From the IMG/VR virus record IMGVR_UViG_3300031364_000091, positions 1 to 20,142 of that record: a stretch of 20,142 nt of DNA, one strand, 5' to 3'. The notes beneath the pieces are model-generated. The model was not told the DNA's origin, ran no database searches, and worked only from the letters and a program-made list of their open reading frames with translations. The translations under genes were made by a program, and so were the position numbers. Shown piece by piece: positions 5,677 through 18,236 of the stretch; within the stretch, counting starts at the first letter, position 1, and every line of letters starts with the position of its first letter. This DNA comes from a virus.

Positions 5677-5741
5677 GGAGTGAGTGGTGAGTGGAGTCCC
5701 CCCCCTGTAAGGGGGGGACGATCCACTCGCCATCACACTCC
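5677..5741. other. Long imperfect hairpin with a 9-bp G/C core
   Basis: The core GTCCCCCCC / GGGGGGGAC pairs perfectly around a CTGTAA loop. Pairing continues outward: GAGTGGA with TCCACTC (two-base bulge), TGG with CCA, then GGAGTG with CACTCC at the ends. The whole fold is about 65 nt. It lies 43-107 bases past the helicase stop and about 105 bases before the lipoprotein GTG, in the 210-base gap between them. No U-run follows on either strand. Candidates are a rho-independent-like pause, an RNA processing or stability element, or a leader structure. Confidence 0.6.
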
Positions 5742-5783: not shown

Positions 5784-7250
5784 TCATGCGTCACCACCTT
5801 CGTCTTCGGAGCACGGCAGCCAGAGCGTTGCGCGTTTCGGGCCGGCCACCCAGCGAATCTTGCGGGCGATCTGAAGGCGGTCGAGGGACTGTTGGAGCTG
5901 GGCTCCGCGTGAGTAGTCGAGGACCGCTGAGAGCTGACGGCAGCTGAGGTTGGGGTTGTCGGTGACGGCCTTGAGGACTCGGGCGTCGAGGGCGTTCAGG
6001 CGACGTTCGCGGATTTCCTCTTTGCTGGGCTCAGCCTCGGCCAGAATGAGCAGGCCAGCGTGGGTGTCGCCGTCCTCCTCGACGTCGACGAAACGCAGCG
6101 AGAAGGGCGCCTGGGCCCGTCCGTTGGTCCTCGCCTTTTCGTGGGTGACGCGGACCACGGTCTCGGCCTGGTCGTGTCGCTGTAGATCCAGGAGGAAGAC
6201 GGAACTGGCCGCGTCGAAGATGGCGCTCGAGCCACGAAGCTTCTCACGGCCGTCCGAATCGTCGTGGGGTGATGACTTGCGGCCGTGGGTGATGATGACG
6301 ACCGCACAGCCGGTCCGTTCGCTGATTCTGAAGCAGAGGTCGATGATGCGCCGGAAGTCGCTGGAGTTCTCATCGAGTCCCGGGGCCAGGGCACGGAGGC
6401 TGTCCAGGATCCACAGCGTCTTTCCTTCGCAGGCTCGGCACCAGTAGCTCTCTGCATTGGGGTCGGTGAGGTACGGGCCCAAGACCTCGAGTTCGAGCCG
6501 GTCCGGGAACAGTTCGGTTGGGTCGATTTGCATGCCAACGGCCAGGCGCTGGTAGCGTGCTCGGGTGAGTCGCGCGCCCTGCTCGTAGTCCGAGTGTAGG
6601 ACAGGGCCGCACACCGCAGCGAAGGCGCCCCAGATTGGTTTCCCGCTGGCGACGGCGAGGGCCATGGCCTGGGCCGCAGACGTCTTCCCGCTGTAGCCGT
6701 AGCCGGCGAGCAGCGCGGGCGGGCCCGGGAGCAGGTCGAGCGACTGGCAGACCCACGGGGTTGGTGGCAGCGGTTCGAAGATGGCGCGCGCGTCGAGCCG
6801 GCTGGTTCGGGTCCGTGATGACTCGCCCAGCGCCTCGAGCCGGGACTGGATGCGAGAGCGCAGCTCGTCCGACTCGGTCTCGTCGGACAGGGCCGAGACC
6901 TCGGAGCTGAGCAGGCGTAGCTCGCGCCGTGACCAGAGCTCGCGGATCCGGGTGGCGTGCCGTGGCAGGTCCTTGGGCAGGACGTAGGGGGAGTCCAGGA
7001 GCTGGACGAGGTAGGCCGAGCCGCCGACTTGCTCGAGCCGGTGCCGATCGTGGAGCCAGCTGGCGACGCCGGGCAGGTCACGCGTTCCGTCGAGCTCGCG
7101 GCACGCGTTGAAGATCCATCGGTTGGCGTCCGAGTAGAAGTAGCGGGGCTCGAGCTCGACCGAGAGGGAGCTGTCGGAAAGCAGGGCACCGAGCACGGCA
7201 CCTTCGGCGTCGAGGTCACTGGGTGGGACTCGTTCGTCTGGTTCGGTCAC
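5784..7250 (-). CDS. Replicative helicase: DnaB_N domain fused to a RepA-like ATPase
   Basis: A 488-residue protein. Residues ~10-110 match the DnaB N-terminal domain (PPSDLDAEGAVLGALLSD, then YFYSDANRWIFNACREL), which contacts primase. Residues ~160-395 are a RecA-fold ATPase of RepA/AAA_25 type: Walker A GYGYSGKTS (183-191), Walker B LWILDS (279-284), VVIITHGRK (317-325) and RGSSAIFDAASSVFLLD. The C-terminal ~75 residues look like a winged helix (LSCRQLSAVLDYSRGAQLQQ). It should unwind DNA at the phage fork. The GTG at 7250 has AGGTG upstream and a GTGA overlap with the previous stop, so I prefer it to the longer ATG at 7289. No primase gene is seen in the window. Confidence 0.85.
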   Translation of the reverse strand: MTEPDERVPPSDLDAEGAVLGALLSDSSLSVELEPRYFYSDANRWIFNACRELDGTRDLPGVASWLHDRHRLEQVGGSAYLVQLLDSPYVLPKDLPRHATRIRELWSRRELRLLSSEVSALSDETESDELRSRIQSRLEALGESSRTRTSRLDARAIFEPLPPTPWVCQSLDLLPGPPALLAGYGYSGKTSAAQAMALAVASGKPIWGAFAAVCGPVLHSDYEQGARLTRARYQRLAVGMQIDPTELFPDRLELEVLGPYLTDPNAESYWCRACEGKTLWILDSLRALAPGLDENSSDFRRIIDLCFRISERTGCAVVIITHGRKSSPHDDSDGREKLRGSSAIFDAASSVFLLDLQRHDQAETVVRVTHEKARTNGRAQAPFSLRFVDVEEDGDTHAGLLILAEAEPSKEEIRERRLNALDARVLKAVTDNPNLSCRQLSAVLDYSRGAQLQQSLDRLQIARKIRWVAGPKRATLWLPCSEDEGGDA

Positions 7251-8179
7251 CAGGGCACCTCGTCTCGCACGCGCAGATCCTGTGGCCATTCGCGGGGGTC
7301 GTGGCTGATGATGCCTTCGACCTCGAGGGCCTTGACGTGCGCGGGCACATGAGCGTCACGGCACTGTTGCACAACCGAGCGGATCCAGGCGACGTCGCAT
7401 GGTCGGCGCCTGGGACCCGTCTCTGGGCCGACGGCGACGAAGGCTGGCGCTACTCCGGCCCCGACATCGCCAGAAAAGTCGATGGGACCCAGCAACGGCT
7501 CGATGCTCAGCCAGTAGTGCGCAGCCGGTACCTGACGCAGGTGATCCCACCGAGCTTCGAGTGTCGGCTGATTTTCGGCGCTGATGCCGAGCCACGCATT
7601 CGGGAGAGGCCACGGACCGTCAGGGTCGGCGCAGCGCTTGCGATGCAACAGCCCATCTTCCGAATCGTACTGGAGCGCTCGGCTGCAACACTCCAGCAGG
7701 CTCTGCCCTGTTGGTTGCTGGTACTCCAGCCAATCGTGGAACCTCGCCATCCGCTCCGGCCGCTTCGTGAGCAGCAAGAACGTCAGGTGCTGGCACGCCG
7801 CCATGACACCGAAGACCGCGGCAATGAATTCGAATGGCACGCGCTCGTGGAACAAATCCCCCATGAATTGTACTGCTACCACAGCAGGCTTGCGCCAGTG
7901 AAGCGGCTGGCTCAGACGTTCCGGGAAGAGCACGACCTCGCCCGACCACCGCCCGTTGCGCGTGCTCGCGTCGCAATGTCTGTTCGCCATGCGTTCCGCC
8001 CAGCACCCGCCGCCAGACCTATCGCCGCATCCTGGCGAGACACGTGTGCAGCCGTGGGATAAATTCCATCGCCGAGCGGCGTTGAAGTAGTCAGCCATCA
8101 TCGCACCCTTTCCCAAATCGCCTGGCGGTACTCGACGCCGTCGAAACACCCGGCCACAGATGCAGCACCGCTCAGCCAT
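7247..8179 (-). CDS. DUF5131 / phage Gp37-Gp68 family protein with extra zinc-knuckle N-terminus
   Basis: A 310-residue protein. The body carries the family signposts in order: WNLSHGCTRVSPGC, GRWSGEVVLFPERL, FMGDLFHERVPFEFI, FLLLTKRPERM, WLGISAENQ, YWLSIEPLLGPIDF, VGPETGPRRRP and a terminal EWPQDLRVRDEVPW. Family function is not firmly known; the N-terminal three-Cys motif is its hallmark. Here the second and third Cys (51 and 59) are separated by seven residues, where family members commonly have two. A 27-residue extension, MAERCCICGRVFRRRRVPPG and following, precedes the usual start. ATG 8179 has AGGAG at ideal spacing; a second SD precedes ATG ATG near residue 27. Overlap with the previous gene is 8 bases. 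Confidence 0.8.
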   Translation of the reverse strand: MAERCCICGRVFRRRRVPPGDLGKGAMMADYFNAARRWNLSHGCTRVSPGCGDRSGGGCWAERMANRHCDASTRNGRWSGEVVLFPERLSQPLHWRKPAVVAVQFMGDLFHERVPFEFIAAVFGVMAACQHLTFLLLTKRPERMARFHDWLEYQQPTGQSLLECCSRALQYDSEDGLLHRKRCADPDGPWPLPNAWLGISAENQPTLEARWDHLRQVPAAHYWLSIEPLLGPIDFSGDVGAGVAPAFVAVGPETGPRRRPCDVAWIRSVVQQCRDAHVPAHVKALEVEGIISHDPREWPQDLRVRDEVPW

Positions 8180-8426
8180 GTAGGTCTCCTGCAAATAGAT
8201 CGCCGACCTTGGGGTCTCTCACCACGCAATACGGAGTTCCCGTGTGGCCACATGAGCACGTAGGGGCCATGAGCCCGCGCAGAGAGCCGCAGACGAACGG
8301 AATGGAGGTTGTGAGAGCCTCACCGCACTTGCTACACGGATGACTGAACGGCTCCAAGCCGTAGCGCGCTGCCCATCGCCTCACGTCAACACCAAAGATT
8401 CGCAAACACTTGTTGCGGTTGATCAC
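8172..8426 (-). CDS. Zinc-ribbon protein, 84 aa
   Basis: An 84-residue protein starting at GTG 8426 behind a strong AGGAGG. It has a basic N-terminal helix, then HPCSKCGEALTTSIPFVCGS and APTCSCGHTGTPYCV, which together give a Cys-pair zinc ribbon. It ends in DPKVGDLFAGDLHG. The stop overlaps the DUF5131 ATG by 8 bases. A nucleic-acid-binding role is plausible from the ribbon alone; the family is not recognised. Confidence 0.7.
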   Translation of the reverse strand: MINRNKCLRIFGVDVRRWAARYGLEPFSHPCSKCGEALTTSIPFVCGSLRGLMAPTCSCGHTGTPYCVVRDPKVGDLFAGDLHG

Positions 8427-8441
8427 GACGCGACCTCCTGA

Positions 8442-8594
8442 TTACCCACGGCGCAACCTCCTGAGCCTGGCGCCCGAGAGCGTGGCGTAGGTGTTGACCC
8501 GGTCGGTGCGCGAACAGACCCACATGTCGGTTCCGGCACCGAACCGGCAGACGACAAACCAGTGGCCGCGGATGCGACCGGTGAGGTCAGGCAC
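8442..8594 (-). CDS. Small protein, 50 aa
   Basis: A 50-residue ORF, VPDLTGRIRGHWFVVCRFGA continuing to a basic end (SGARLRRLRRG). The GTG at 8594 forms an 8-base GTGCCTGA overlap with the upstream stop, and GGTGG lies upstream. It fits the overlap chain and has a beta-rich N-terminus, WFVVCRFGAGTDMWVCSRTD. Function unknown. The stop is TAA at 8442, 16 bases before the next GTG. Confidence 0.5.
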   Translation of the reverse strand: MPDLTGRIRGHWFVVCRFGAGTDMWVCSRTDRVNTYATLSGARLRRLRRG

Positions 8595-8880
8595 GGATAC
8601 CATTCCACCTTTGAAAAGCAGACCCTGTTAAAAAGCAGACCCCTTTGAACAGCAGACCCCGGCCATTGCTCTTGGCCCACTCCGCACAGGAGCGGGTCTG
8701 TGGTCCCCGGTCGCACCTGATTCGCAACAGCAGATTGTCGGTGCACTCGAGTACCGGTTGCGAATTGTCCGGATCCACGCCCATCGCGTGGTAGTACTCG
8801 GCCGCGCACGCCAGGGCGTCCCCTGGGCTCTCGGCGACTAACCAGTCGGGGCCCAGCTTGTGGACGTGCAGGTCAGGCAT
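8587..8880 (-). CDS. Hypothetical protein with repeat-modified C-terminus, 97 aa
   Basis: A 97-residue protein starting MPDLHVHKLGPDWLVAESPG. Residues 1-70 look like a compact alpha/beta domain with two Cys (LRIRCDRGPQTRSCAEWAKS). The C-terminal 25 residues are encoded by three copies of a 17-base repeat read in three different frames (LLFKG, VCFLTG, SAFQRW), so this tail is probably not conserved. The start region carries the AAGGAGGAC-type junction sequence, and its 8-base overlap with the upstream stop (ATGCCTGA) fits the local pattern. Function unknown. Confidence 0.65.
   Translation of the reverse strand: MPDLHVHKLGPDWLVAESPGDALACAAEYYHAMGVDPDNSQPVLECTDNLLLRIRCDRGPQTRSCAEWAKSNGRGLLFKGVCFLTGSAFQRWNGIRA
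8609..8660 (-). repeat. 17-bp tandem repeat, three copies, inside a gene
   Basis: On the plus strand the core AGCAGACCC recurs at 8617, 8634 and 8651, exactly 17 bases apart, each preceded by CTTTGAAA, TGTTAAAA or CTTTGAAC. Because 17 is not a multiple of three, each copy of the overlapping gene (8587-8880, minus strand) is translated in a different frame. The full array is 51 bases, so the downstream frame is kept. Confidence 0.85.
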
Positions 8881-9061
8881 CGGTCTCGTCCTCCTTGTCG
8901 TTATCTTCGTCCTCTGGAGCGAACTGCTCAGGCATGCATCGGCTGCACCCGTGACACTCCTGAAATCCTGTGTTCAGGCATCCTGGACAGACACCAGGAT
9001 CGCCGTCTGGAAAACAGGCGCACAGCATGCACTCGCTGTAACCGCTGCCATCACAAGCCAT
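8873..9061 (-). CDS. Cys-rich zinc-binding protein, 62 aa
   Basis: A 62-residue protein starting MACDGSGYSECMLCACFPDG. It has ten Cys in CxxC- and CxxCxxG-type spacings (CPGCLNTGFQECHGCSRC), similar to DnaJ-type or rubredoxin-like knuckles, then a very acidic tail (EDEDNDKEDETD). It probably binds one or two zinc ions. The ATG at 9061 follows AAGGAGGACAAGACC, and the stop overlaps the next ATG by 8 bases. Function unknown. Confidence 0.65.
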   Translation of the reverse strand: MACDGSGYSECMLCACFPDGDPGVCPGCLNTGFQECHGCSRCMPEQFAPEDEDNDKEDETDA

Positions 9062-9404
9062 CGGTCTTGTCCTCCTTCATGAGCTCGGCGAGGCGCTCAT
9101 CCGTGATGCCGCGAAGCGATTCGGCCAACGCTTCCTTGGCAGCCTCGTACTCGATCTCGGAAGCGTCGTCATCCTCTGGTGTTGTCCGTATCCACGCACT
9201 GCGTGTCACCGCGAACGTCACTGCCGCCCGCAGCACCGCGGTCTCCTCTGGCGTGCGCAGGAGTGAGCGGAGGCGATCTTGCCAGGGATCCAGCTTCTCC
9301 AGTTCCTCCAGCGCATCCTCGCACCGACCAGTGCCTGCGCGCGAGGCTGCATAGACCACGACACTCAGCGCGTCGAGCAATTCGGGTCCGGTTGGGTCAA
9401 CCAT
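9051..9404 (-). CDS. Paralog A of an inverted gene pair, 117 aa
   Basis: A 117-residue protein. Residues 1-59 (MVDPTGPELLDALSVVVYAA and following) are nearly identical to residues 1-59 of the plus-strand protein at 13964-14413, and the C-terminal KEDKTD matches its KEDKTN. The middle differs: here it is a helical, acidic segment with TTPEDDDASEIEYEAAKEAL. The conserved N-terminus is helical with a DPWQ-RLRSLL motif. Function unknown. The ATG at 9404 overlaps the upstream stop by 8 bases (ATGGTTGA). The gene ends 11 bases inside the next one. Confidence 0.75.
   Translation of the reverse strand: MVDPTGPELLDALSVVVYAASRAGTGRCEDALEELEKLDPWQDRLRSLLRTPEETAVLRAAVTFAVTRSAWIRTTPEDDDASEIEYEAAKEALAESLRGITDERLAELMKEDKTDGL
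9240..9404 (-). repeat. Inverted duplicate segment, copy A
   Basis: About 165 bases, on the minus strand, that match 13964-14128 on the plus strand at roughly 80% by eye, including exact runs such as CTGGAGGAACT and GAGAAGCTGGATCCCTGGCA. Similarity stops in mid-gene after about codon 59. Confidence 0.85.
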
Positions 9405-9942
9405 GGGCGTCTCCCTTCGACGGCACGTAGGCGGGGCCGATCTCGCGCCATAACCATTCGACAGTCCTACTACCAGGAACTCCCATGGCAGCGCGCAAAC
9501 AGCGTCCTATGAGTTCTCCGTTCTCAATGGAGCAGACCTCTATTAGTCTCCCGTCCCTCACCTCCGGCGGCCACGGCTTCCACTCGCGCGAAGCCTCAAG
9601 GAACCGCATCCTGTCCCGTAGCTGCTGCTCGCTCTCGTACACCGGCCCAGCATCGTCGCGCATACGCTCGATCAGATCCTCGAGCTCAGCTACCTTTTCT
9701 TCTGCGGCCTGGCTAGCGTCGTGAAGCTCTTCGCTTCTCATGAGCAGTTGGCGCACGTCAGCCCGAGCAAGGGCCGCGTCAGCTGCAGATTCGTCGCGCT
9801 CGGACTCGAGCTCAGCGATTCGCAACGTCGCCCCGTCGAGTGCCGCCTCCAGCGCACGAATCGTGGCCGCCTTGCGCCGAAGCGCGGTGCGCAGGTCGTC
9901 GTGCCGGCGCCGGAGCAGTGTGGCGAGGGCTCGGCGGATCAT
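9397..9942 (-). CDS. Coiled-coil protein, 181 aa
   Basis: A 181-residue protein. After a basic start (MIRRALATLLRRRHDDLRTA), residues about 22-100 form a long heptad-rich coiled coil (RALEAALDGATLRIAELESE; EEKVAELEDLIERMRDD). A small globular C-terminus then contains WKPWPPEVRDGRLIEVCSIE and EWLWREIGPAYVP. The ATG at 9942 shares ATGA with the upstream stop and has GAGGG before it. This rules out the much longer upstream extension in the same frame. Function unknown; the coil suggests oligomerisation. Confidence 0.7.
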   Translation of the reverse strand: MIRRALATLLRRRHDDLRTALRRKAATIRALEAALDGATLRIAELESERDESAADAALARADVRQLLMRSEELHDASQAAEEKVAELEDLIERMRDDAGPVYESEQQLRDRMRFLEASREWKPWPPEVRDGRLIEVCSIENGELIGRCLRAAMGVPGSRTVEWLWREIGPAYVPSKGDAHG

Positions 9943-11658: not shown

Positions 11659-12314
11659 TTCTGCACCAGGCGCAGGCGGGGATCCTCGCCCGGCTTCTCG
11701 CACCGTTCGATCGTCTCGTAGCCGATGAGCTCAGCGATCGCATCATCGACGTCCTTGACAGAAAATCGCGAGAGCTCGTTTGCGATGGCGTGATAGTTGC
11801 GCTCTATGCCATCGGACAGAAGGTAGCTAACGGCCGCCATCGCCGCGTCCAGCTGGTCATCGTCCAGCCCGTTGTGCAGTTGCCGTTCGTCGTCGCGCAT
11901 GGGCCGCTCCTCGAGCTGCTCACCCGTGTCGACGCGGATCTCCGTCACCTTGCCGAGCCGGAAGTCGAAGCGACGTTCGCACGGAACGAGCCGGTACTCG
12001 CGCTTGTCTCGGACCGTTGCCAGCAGCGCGTCGGCCTCGTTCTGCAGCCGTTTCACCGTGGCTTTCGCGGTGGCGTCGGCTTCTTTCCTGGCCTCCTCCG
12101 CCTCGTGCGCTTCCTTCGACAGGTGAGCGGCCCTGTCCCCGACCCCGAGCAGCTCCTGTTCGGTGAGCAGCACGGGCAGCCGTTGCTGGAAGGGCTCGAT
12201 CTTGAGGTCGGTCGGGAGCTTGTCGGCTTCCTTCATGCGTTTCGCCACTGCTCGTAGCTCCTCTGCGTCGGTGTTGATCACGGGCACTTGTTGCTTTTTG
12301 CGTCTCGTTGCCAT
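11655..12314 (-). CDS. Coiled-coil phage protein with DTGE segment, 219 aa
   Basis: A 219-residue protein. A basic start (MATRRKKQQ) is followed by a coiled coil (about 62-100, AHLSKEAHEAEEARKEADAT and following). A segment YRLVPCERRFDFRLGKVTEI then RVDTGEQLEERPMRDDERQ resembles a conserved block seen in many phage early proteins of unknown function. The C-terminal ~60 residues (AVSYLLSDGIERNYHAIANE and following) look like a winged helix. ATG 12314 has GGAG upstream and lies 37 bases inside the repressor gene. It is the first gene after the repressor in the minus train. Confidence 0.75.
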   Translation of the reverse strand: MATRRKKQQVPVINTDAEELRAVAKRMKEADKLPTDLKIEPFQQRLPVLLTEQELLGVGDRAAHLSKEAHEAEEARKEADATAKATVKRLQNEADALLATVRDKREYRLVPCERRFDFRLGKVTEIRVDTGEQLEERPMRDDERQLHNGLDDDQLDAAMAAVSYLLSDGIERNYHAIANELSRFSVKDVDDAIAELIGYETIERCEKPGEDPRLRLVQK

Positions 12315-12535
12315 GTCTTCTCCAGTCTCTTCCAGTCGTCTCCGTAGAGCAGAGAGAGTAGGGGGATGTGCAGTGCGCGCGCCATGGCCATGGCCACGGT
12401 GACCGACGGGTCCGTGCCGCGCTCGATCATCTTCTGCACTGACGTTGGATGCAGTCCGCAGGCCCGCGAGAGGTCGAACCGGGTCAGCCCCCGTGCTTCT
12501 CGGGCCTGCTCCACTCGTTTGAGGAAATCGTTCAC
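12278..12535 (-). CDS. XRE/Cro-CI family repressor
   Basis: An 85-residue protein with a helix-turn-helix at about residues 15-40 (GLTRFDLSRACGLHPTSVQK), then VAMAMARALHIPLLSLLYGD, as in HTH_3 proteins. It is a single DNA-binding domain with no C-terminal protease or oligomerisation domain, so it resembles Cro or short repressors more than full CI. GTG 12535 is the probable start. A -10-like TACTCC (12544-12549) close upstream suggests a nearly leaderless mRNA. The palindrome at 12570-12585 lies just upstream and is a likely target. An ATG at 12577 is possible but falls inside that palindrome. Confidence 0.85.
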   Translation of the reverse strand: MNDFLKRVEQAREARGLTRFDLSRACGLHPTSVQKMIERGTDPSVTVAMAMARALHIPLLSLLYGDDWKRLEKTWQRDAKSNKCP

Positions 12536-12569
12536 GGTTCTGAGGAGTACCAGACTGGGCAGGGGCGCG

Positions 12570-12585
12570 CAAGACAATTGTCTTG
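12570..12585. promoter_or_regulatory. Perfect 16-bp palindrome, probable repressor operator
   Basis: CAAGACAATTGTCTTG is its own reverse complement. It sits in the 103-base gap between the divergent XRE repressor and nuclease genes, and its last three bases form the start of TTGACT, a -35-like hexamer for the rightward gene. It is AT-rich relative to the flanks. This is the expected position for a repressor that blocks the rightward promoter and its own promoter. Binding is inferred, not shown. Confidence 0.75.
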
Positions 12586-13460: not shown

Positions 13461-13971
13461 CCGACGCAGGCCCAAGACGTGGGACGACCTCTATCACAAG
13501 CGATTCCTGAACGCGGAAAGCTTCCAGGGCAAGAAGGTGACCTTGACCATCACAGACCTGTACGTGGACGAGCTACCGGACGACAGCGGCAAGATGGAGG
13601 ACCACGGGCTGTTGAACTTCAAGGAGACGAAACGAGAGATGAAGATCAACTACACGAACGGGACCTGCATGCGTCTGATGTTCGGTATCGACGACCCTAC
13701 GAAGCTCATCGGTCACCGGGTCACGTTCTACCCGACAAGCGTGCCGTTCGGGAAGGAGATGAAGCTCGGGATCCGAGTGTGGGGCAGCCCCGAGCTCGAG
13801 CATGACATGGTCGTAGAGGTACCGATGCCGCGCCGGAAACGTCCCGAGCGCCACACCATGCACGCCGTGCGCAAGGGCCAGCAGCAGGCACAGGAGACGG
13901 AAACCAAACACGAGCCAGAGCCCGAGCCAGAACAGCACGGGGACGCATGGGAGGGACCGGACGATGGGTGA
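13450..13971 (+). CDS. SSB-like OB-fold protein with acidic tail
   Basis: A 173-residue protein. Residues 26-115 have the pattern of a phage protein group with an OB-like fold: FQGKKVTLTITDLYVDELPD, then HGLLNFKETKREMKINYTNG, then LIGHRVTFYPTSVPFGKEMK, then GIRVW. After a basic patch (PRRKRPERH) comes an acidic C-terminal tail, EPEPEPEQHGDAWEGPDDG, which recalls the protein-contact tail of SSBs. A single-strand-binding or annealing-partner role beside the exonuclease is inference. The start is GTG 13450 with AGGGGG upstream. Confidence 0.65.
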   Translation: MASDRRRPKTWDDLYHKRFLNAESFQGKKVTLTITDLYVDELPDDSGKMEDHGLLNFKETKREMKINYTNGTCMRLMFGIDDPTKLIGHRVTFYPTSVPFGKEMKLGIRVWGSPELEHDMVVEVPMPRRKRPERHTMHAVRKGQQQAQETETKHEPEPEPEQHGDAWEGPDDG

Positions 13972-14128
13972 TCCTACAGGACCCGAACTGCTCGACGCGC
14001 TCAGTGTCGTGGTCTACGCGGCATCACGTGCAGGGACGTCTCGGTGTGAGGATGCACTGGAGGAACTCGAGAAGCTGGATCCCTGGCAAGAGCGTCTCCG
14101 CTCCCTCCTGTGCACGCCCGAGGAGACC
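13964..14128 (+). repeat. Inverted duplicate segment, copy B
   Basis: Plus-strand partner of the segment at 9240-9404. The two copies are 4.6 kb apart in inverted orientation, flanking the repressor and nuclease control region. In principle, recombination between them could invert that region. Confidence 0.85.
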
Positions 14129-14413
14129 GACATTCTACGCGCCGCACGACTGTACGGTGTTGCTGCCAGGGCACTCGAGCGAGACGCTACCTGTACCGAG
14201 GGGACAATCAACACGCCGCTACTCCGTCAACAGCGCAGCGAACGGTGGCGCGAGTTGATGGCCGCGCTTGAGGGATCACTCGAACCCGGAGCGCCTGTGT
14301 TCTCCTGCTCGTGCCCATGTTGCGGTGCCACGCTCGAGGTTGAGTGCGGTGACGCACCAGGCACCCTGGGTGTGTGTGGCGAGCTCACGAAGGAGGACAA
14401 GACCAATGCCTGA
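13964..14413 (+). CDS. Paralog B of the inverted gene pair, 149 aa
   Basis: A 149-residue protein. Residues 1-59 (MGDPTGPELLDALSVVVYAA and following) and the last nine residues (LTKEDKTNA) match paralog A on the opposite strand. The middle is unrelated: RLYGVAARALERDATCTEGT is followed by a helix and a Cys-rich segment, VFSCSCPCCGATLEVECGDA, that could bind zinc. The ATG overlaps the upstream stop by 8 bases (ATGGGTGA). Function unknown. The mosaic structure suggests recombination between conserved ends. Confidence 0.75.
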   Translation: MGDPTGPELLDALSVVVYAASRAGTSRCEDALEELEKLDPWQERLRSLLCTPEETDILRAARLYGVAARALERDATCTEGTINTPLLRQQRSERWRELMAALEGSLEPGAPVFSCSCPCCGATLEVECGDAPGTLGVCGELTKEDKTNA

Positions 14414-16577: not shown

Positions 16578-18236
16578 ATGCTCATCACCAGCAAATACGA
16601 CGGGAACTGCACGACCTGCGGAGGAGCGATCCGAGCGGGCGACCGGGTCAGTTGGACGAAAGGCGTGCGCGGTGTCAAGCACGCGTCCTGCTCTGAGGAG
16701 GGCCGTGCGGCGCAGGCGGCTACGGTCGCGAGCCGGGCCACGGACGCTGACCTGGAGATCCCGCTCCCAGACGGGTGCGAGCTGTACCCGTACCAGAGGG
16801 CCGGTGTTGCGTACATGGCGGCTCGTGCCGGCGTGGTCCAGGGCGACGAAATGGGCCTAGGGAAGACCGTCCAGGTACTCGCCGCGGTCAACGTCCTGCG
16901 GCTCGAACGCGTGCTGGTGATCTGCCCAAAGAGCCTGGCGTCGAACTGGGTGCGAGAGGGTCTGAAGTGGCTCGTCTCGCCGTCCGTGTCCAGGACCCCG
17001 GACTTCTCGGGGGGACTCGTGGTGGTGACCTACGAGGAAGCCAAGAAGTTCGCCGAGACGCTGGCCCTCAAACAGTGGAACGCGGTCGTCGTCGACGAGG
17101 CGCACCTGGTCAAGAACCCGACGGCCCAGCGCTCGAAGGTCGTCTACGCCCTGGCTTCGAAGTGTCCCAGGCGCTGGCTCTTGACCGGGACCCCGATCCC
17201 GAACAAGCCGATCGAACTGTTCCAGCTCGTGGCGTTGGCCGGACCCGACGAATGGAACCCGGGCGGCAAGGGGTTTTTTCGGTTCGCCCGCAGGTACTGT
17301 GACGCGCACCAGGAGACGGTAGCGCGCAACAAGACCGTCTGGATCTTTGACGGAGCCTCGAACCTAGACGAGCTCCAGGAACGGCTCAGGTACACAGTCA
17401 TGATCCGGCGGCTGAAGGCGGACGTGCTCGCGGACCTGCCCCCGAAGGTGCGCCAGGTCATCGAACTGCCCGCGAACGGTGCCAAGGCCGCGCTCCGGGC
17501 CGAGCAGAAGCTGGTCCAGCAAACGCTTGGGGCGCCCACGGACTGGGCCGAGGCCGTGCGACAGCTGCAGGCGACCGATCCGGTGGCGTTCTCGGAGCTG
17601 GCCCGGATCCGGGCTGAGACCGCGCTCGCCAAGGCCCCGGCTGTGGTCGAGCACGTGAGGATGGCCTTGGAGGGTGGTGTGCACAAGCTGCTGCTCTGGG
17701 CCCATCACCACGCCGTCATCGACGCCCTGGTCGAGGGGCTGTCCGAGTACTCGCCGGTAGAACTCACGGGCAGGACCAGCTCCGAGGACCGTCAGGCGGC
17801 CGTGGACAGGTTCCAATCAGATTCGACCTGCCGCGTGTTCGTGGGCTCGATCCAGGCCGGGGGCGTGGGGTTGACCCTGACCGCGGCCTCGCTGGTGCTG
17901 TTCGCGGAATCGTCCTGGGTCCCGGCCGAAAACACCCAAGCCGAGGACCGGGCGCACCGGATCGGCCAGCGTGACACGGTGACGGTTCAGCACCTGGCGC
18001 TTGAGGGGTCGCTGGATGCCCATGTCCTGCAGACGGTCCTGGCCAAGCAGGAGATCGCGGACCTGGGGCTCGATCGCGAAACGAACCCCCCTGTTCATGA
18101 AACGAACCCCCCTGTTCATGAAACGAACCCCCCTGTTCATGAAACAGGAAGCCCCGTTCATGAAACAACACACTCCGGGGGCCGGGACAGGACCGGCACG
18201 TCTCCTCGCCGCGAACCTGGACTGGCCCCCGACTGA
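16578..18236 (+). CDS. SNF2-family DEAD/DEAH helicase with N-terminal zinc finger
   Basis: A 552-residue SF2 translocase. Residues 1-40 are a short zinc-finger-like unit (GNCTTCGGAIRAGDRVSWTK, then HASC). The helicase core then shows LYPYQRAGVAYM (Q motif), DEMGLGKT (90-97), DEAH (173-176), LTGTPIPNK (202-210), VFVGSIQAGGVGLTLTAAS and QAEDRAHRIGQRD. The layout resembles small SMARCAL1-type phage helicases, used to remodel forks or strip proteins from DNA. Residues 501-528 are four copies of a seven-residue unit encoded by a 21-base tandem repeat. ATG 16578 with AGGAG is preferred to longer in-frame starts within the upstream gene. Confidence 0.9.
   Translation: MLITSKYDGNCTTCGGAIRAGDRVSWTKGVRGVKHASCSEEGRAAQAATVASRATDADLEIPLPDGCELYPYQRAGVAYMAARAGVVQGDEMGLGKTVQVLAAVNVLRLERVLVICPKSLASNWVREGLKWLVSPSVSRTPDFSGGLVVVTYEEAKKFAETLALKQWNAVVVDEAHLVKNPTAQRSKVVYALASKCPRRWLLTGTPIPNKPIELFQLVALAGPDEWNPGGKGFFRFARRYCDAHQETVARNKTVWIFDGASNLDELQERLRYTVMIRRLKADVLADLPPKVRQVIELPANGAKAALRAEQKLVQQTLGAPTDWAEAVRQLQATDPVAFSELARIRAETALAKAPAVVEHVRMALEGGVHKLLLWAHHHAVIDALVEGLSEYSPVELTGRTSSEDRQAAVDRFQSDSTCRVFVGSIQAGGVGLTLTAASLVLFAESSWVPAENTQAEDRAHRIGQRDTVTVQHLALEGSLDAHVLQTVLAKQEIADLGLDRETNPPVHETNPPVHETNPPVHETGSPVHETTHSGGRDRTGTSPRREPGLAPD
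18078..18161 (+). repeat. 21-bp tandem repeat, four units, at the 3' end of the SNF2 gene
   Basis: Units start at 18078, 18099, 18120 and 18141. The first three are identical, the fourth diverged, and a fragment of a fifth follows. They encode ETNPPVH three times, then ETGSPVH. Each unit junction creates the 8-base palindrome TTCATGAA (18094, 18115, 18136, 18157), so palindromes recur every 21 bases, two helical turns. Confidence 0.9.

Follow-up and report, generated by a model that had tools for sequence, protein, structure and literature searches.

Short direct repeats in tandem occur in three kinds of described systems that lie closest to the array considered here. Short tandem duplications and minisatellites at gene ends consist of a short unit in few, imperfect copies, lie at a variable tail of the protein and can be absent from a relative. 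Contingency loci carry near-identical units able to slip, whose length is not divisible by three inside a reading frame, so that the gain or loss of a unit shifts the frame. Iteron arrays, such as the lambda origin and those of plasmids, are formed by direct repeats of about 17–22 nt, can overlap a gene and have a replication helicase gene nearby. The window analyzed, i.e., the whole stretch of a 20,142-base virus record from an uncultured phage, contains an array that agrees with all three in some respects: it has few imperfect copies at a gene end, its unit of 17 nt lies inside a 97-aa ORF, and both the unit length and the direct-repeat layout match those of iterons. No feature was found here that would distinguish it from short tandem duplications and minisatellites, and the array looks like an ordinary small local duplication, not a genetic switch.

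The array occupies positions 8660–8610 of the minus strand as three consecutive 17-nt units that are imperfect copies of one another (Table 1), agreeing pairwise at 14, 15 and 14 of 17 positions (82–88%). The sequence AGCAGACCC is common to all three units at a spacing of exactly 17 nt, and copies of 18 nt are likewise found three times, with spacings of 17 and 17. TRF calls the array at 8614–8661 with a period of 17, 2.8 copies and a score of 68, which bears out the original prediction of a 17-base repeat triplicated at an exact period inside a gene. A search of both strands of the window gives three exact occurrences of AGCAGACCC, all of them within the array. When one mismatch is allowed, 10 matches are found against 7.37 expected, a number reached by 18 of 100 shuffles; since this count is near chance, what distinguishes the array is its exact copies at even spacing. 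Moreover, 9-mers present three times at one period (10–30 nt) were absent from all 100 copies generated from the window with a first-order Markov model, while the real window has 22 such positions, including those of a second array at 18078. Windows simulated with Markov models of order 1, 2 and 5 reached a TRF score of at least 68 in 4, 3 and 5 cases out of 300, respectively. The array is above chance; for the top-scoring tandem repeat in 20 kb of sequence, it would be rare, yet neither unique nor extraordinary.

Table 1. Positions of the 17-nt units, of the two genes at their junction and of the second tandem array in the window
Feature	Position	Strand	Remarks
97-aa ORF, function unassigned	8587..8880	-	Last 20 residues encoded by the array or past it; 63% identical to its counterpart in L155
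53-aa ORF, next gene	8442..8603	-	Start at ATG 8603 or GTG 8594; 71% identical to its counterpart in L155
Array unit 1, GGGGTCTGCTGTTCAAA	8644..8660	-	First half encodes the end of GRGLL, conserved in L155
Array unit 2, GGGGTCTGCTTTTTAAC	8627..8643	-	
Array unit 3, AGGGTCTGCTTTTCAAA	8610..8626	-	3' end runs into AAAGGTGG ahead of the next start
Second tandem array, 21-nt unit GAAACGAACCCCCCTGTTCAT, about four copies	18078..18166	+	C-terminal tail of the SNF2 helicase ORF

The window encodes a terminase large subunit (TerL), a DnaB-like helicase, an SNF2 helicase, an exonuclease and an HTH protein (12278–12577). The array extends over the C-terminal tail of the 97-aa ORF, which matches no family in PHROGs at an E value of 0.001 or in Pfam at 0.01, and it ends just ahead of the 53-aa gene. 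The 97-aa protein reads GRGLL followed by the array-encoded tail FKGVCFLTGSAFQRWNGIRA, and the peptides LLFKG, VCFLTG and SAFQRW attributed to the three copies in the original prediction are indeed present in this ORF. Its stop codon (8589–8587) falls within the 53-aa gene, whose own stop codon lies at 8444–8442. The start proposed for this next gene, position 8594, corresponds to an in-frame GTG, the ATG at 8603 being another possible start. As a 17-nt unit does not fill whole codons, adding or removing one would alter both the tail and the overlap, as had been anticipated: the frames past the array stop at 8587 (the present one), at 8442 (the frame of the next gene, entered when one unit is gained) and at 8423 (entered when one is lost). 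An RNA element was rejected, the whole window having no Rfam match at gathering scores and the array an unremarkable fold. Among the papers listed by literature searches, none concerns the array.

Searches with the helicase and TerL found one close relative, contig 3300031585_000005 (loci L155 and L196), with best-segment identities of 97% for TerL and 94% for the helicase. In this relative, both small genes lie side by side and the array is absent: the upstream protein ends in GRGLLCSTEW and is followed by the stop codon, 2 nt and the ATG of the downstream gene. The alignment with L155 shows a gap of 29 columns inside the array with alignable flanks on both sides, and the record of the relative, itself a fragment, was run through TRF over its full 17,264 bases, with no array built on a 17-nt or GGGTCTG-type unit being listed. 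The upstream proteins have their sequence in common up to GRGLL and their tails then differ; therefore, conservation stops where the array begins. Judged from the sequences of the window and this one relative, the array is a length difference at the gene junction. A copy number fixed in all relatives and a protein conserved across the array had been named as the outcome contrary to the prediction; what was found is one relative devoid of the array and a protein that is not conserved at that place.

Further searches for relatives covered phages, viral contigs and genomes. Among phages, neither a megablast of the window nor searches with TerL, the helicase or the 53-aa protein produced a match, the array region gave a single weak match to the tape measure gene of a Vibrio phage (E = 2), and the 97-aa protein hit a single Pseudomonas phage, pf16, represented by two records (E = 0.9). 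In viral contigs, the 53-aa protein was found in the L155 contig alone. Three loci retrieved with the 97-aa protein (L152–L154) match residues 34–73 only, at 41% identity, and their protein ends differ, which makes them uninformative on the array; a distant TerL match in viral contigs (L197, 29%) was also set aside. A search for TerL in 199 genomes from the same phylum as G004, a guessed host phylum searched without a positive control, found no match.

The origin considered probable, albeit with appreciable room for doubt, is a small local tandem duplication at the gene boundary, followed by divergence. A 17-nt segment extending from the end of the 97-aa gene to the approach of the ribosome-binding site of the next gene, which would be the native junction, may have given rise, along the lineage leading to this phage, to three copies that subsequently drifted. 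With two copies added (34 nt), the frame of the 97-aa gene would have shifted and, as a result, the old C-terminus and its stop would have been replaced by the array-encoded tail, with the new TGA overlapping the next gene and the tail presumably being tolerated functionally. The direction of this change would be duplication, not loss in the relative, gain and loss being indistinguishable here because a single close relative was found. Unit 1 matches the codons of L155 in part only (GGT CTG CTG versus GGA TTG CTC). Moreover, a single unit between the present flanks would read into the frame of the next gene with no stop and, thus, the ancestral junction must have differed in other ways too. 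The 14–15 of 17 positions common to the units also leave room for selection on the motif, which counts against plain duplication and drift. If the array is indeed ordinary, it offers an example of a small tandem duplication that rewrites the end of a phage gene together with a gene overlap.

That the 17-nt repeats bind a replication or regulatory protein of the phage and overlap the gene end by chance appears unlikely, even though their layout is that of iterons and a DnaB/AAA_25 helicase gene (5784–7289) lies about 1.3 kb from the array. The array is not kept with this replication gene in the one relative, whose record is a fragment: L155 has the helicase without the array, which lowers this reading. 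In addition, the array differs from known iteron arrays in having three units only and no initiator identified. Comparable arrays elsewhere were sought in viral contigs, where 32 + 37 stretches amounted to 68 distinct loci, and in genome contigs, with at least 117 stretches; the arrays inspected, i.e., the first one or two per strand of each locus, were mostly codon-periodic as judged by eye. Of 10 records chosen for containing arrays, 5 matched a two-copy pattern. Nine viral loci were picked by eye (L028, L029, L162, L171, L174, L175, L177, L180 and L188), and three of them have CAGACCC arrays in or beside replication genes: that of L028 is within a replication initiation protein, that of L171 occupies the 3' end of a VapE/helicase-type gene, and that of L180 lies downstream of a primase/helicase gene at a distance of about 350 nt. 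These three speak in favor of binding sites, but the nine contigs were chosen post hoc and have no control set. Around the array of L162, there is only a weak replication match (best E = 0.0048) and no Pfam match; the neighbors of L174, L175, L177 and L188 were scanned with no replication-gene match, and those of L029 were not scanned. What comes nearest to such a match is an SbcC-like side match (E 1.3e-6) in L175, in an ORF about 2 kb away, and L188 has a terminase gene near its array.

A role in translation, in which the SD-like stretches AAAGGGG, ACAGGG and AAAGGTGG and the stop–start overlap would tune the expression of the 53-aa gene, is considered quite improbable. It would account for the purine-rich SD-like stretch at each unit boundary, the last of them directly before the ATG of the next gene, and for the upstream stop codon lying inside that gene. 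However, the downstream gene of L155 does with a plain 2-nt stop–start junction and no array, any duplication near a ribosome-binding site yields repeated purine stretches, and the fold of the array transcript is not notable (z +0.89).

The second array of the window lies in frame and encodes HETNPPV repeats from helicase residue 541 onwards; its TRF score of 141 was not reached by any simulated window. For eight of the 12 SNF2 homologues listed, out of 1605 matching records, the alignments end at residues 533–541, and for the other four at 548–585. Among five homologues whose annotation was opened, two genes end no more than about 10 codons from the alignment end and three run more than 100 further. 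Given these mixed ends, the tail that carries the second array is variable, and the array need not mark an ancestral end. Two patterns of the second array searched in viral contigs gave no match.

It is very doubtful that both arrays are members of a scattered family of C-run tandem repeats whose core is fixed and whose remainder differs from array to array, and which are seeded at gene ends and in replication genes of phages and some bacteria, perhaps as binding or priming sites; should C-run arrays near replication genes indeed form such a family, they would provide a sequence handle on the replication regions of uncultured phages. Each array sits in the tail of a gene and combines an A/T tract with a C-run, in the two cases on the same strand. 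However, the likeness of the 17-nt and 21-nt units is not significant (an equally good alignment is reached by 51 of 500 composition shuffles and by 24 of 500 17-mers of the window) and the SNF2 gene has no match in the record of the relative, so the link between the arrays is unproven. A three-copy CAGACCCT pattern gave 9 matches in 2 of 59 genomes (G004 and G016), G004 having been preselected for containing one, and its reversed control gave 4 matches, also in 2 of the 59 (G016 and G021); for these reasons, no enrichment is claimed. As a separate observation, G004, a Thermoanaerobaculia MAG, and its relative G016 contain short tandem arrays that have the CAGACCCTG core in common and each their own remainder (L230, L231, L221 and L225), situated inside ORFs, near ORF ends or between ORFs, the ORFs there being unannotated.

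The slippage hot spot and phase-variation device of the original prediction, in which changes in unit number would alter the 97-aa C-terminus and the way in which it overlaps or fuses with the next gene, is highly improbable: one unit gained or lost would lead into the alternative frames given above and the one relative does differ at this site, but the units are only three and too divergent for the near-identity that slipping demands, the change would touch nothing beyond the non-conserved tail, and the relative lacks the whole array instead of differing by one unit.

Apart from the arrays, the window has three other features of note. Shortly past the DnaB-like gene, a hairpin at 5689–5728 (minus strand) has a C7/G8 stem flanked by GAGTGGA/TCCACTC; L155 has the identical 40 nt, folding of the surrounding 121 nt as DNA gives a z of -4.42, and the hairpin is a candidate origin or terminator. 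The motif AAGGAGGACAAGACCGATG, made up of an SD sequence plus a start, occurs with 0–1 mismatches at 8878–8896, 9059–9077 and 14390–14408, against a mean of 0.01 expected, and once in L196; it precedes different small ORFs and may represent a common translation-start module. Finally, an inverted repeat of 195 nt (9222–9416 versus 13952–14146, 82% complementary) covers part of each of two small ORFs (9051–9404 and 13964–14413) that are similar to one another and lie on opposite strands.
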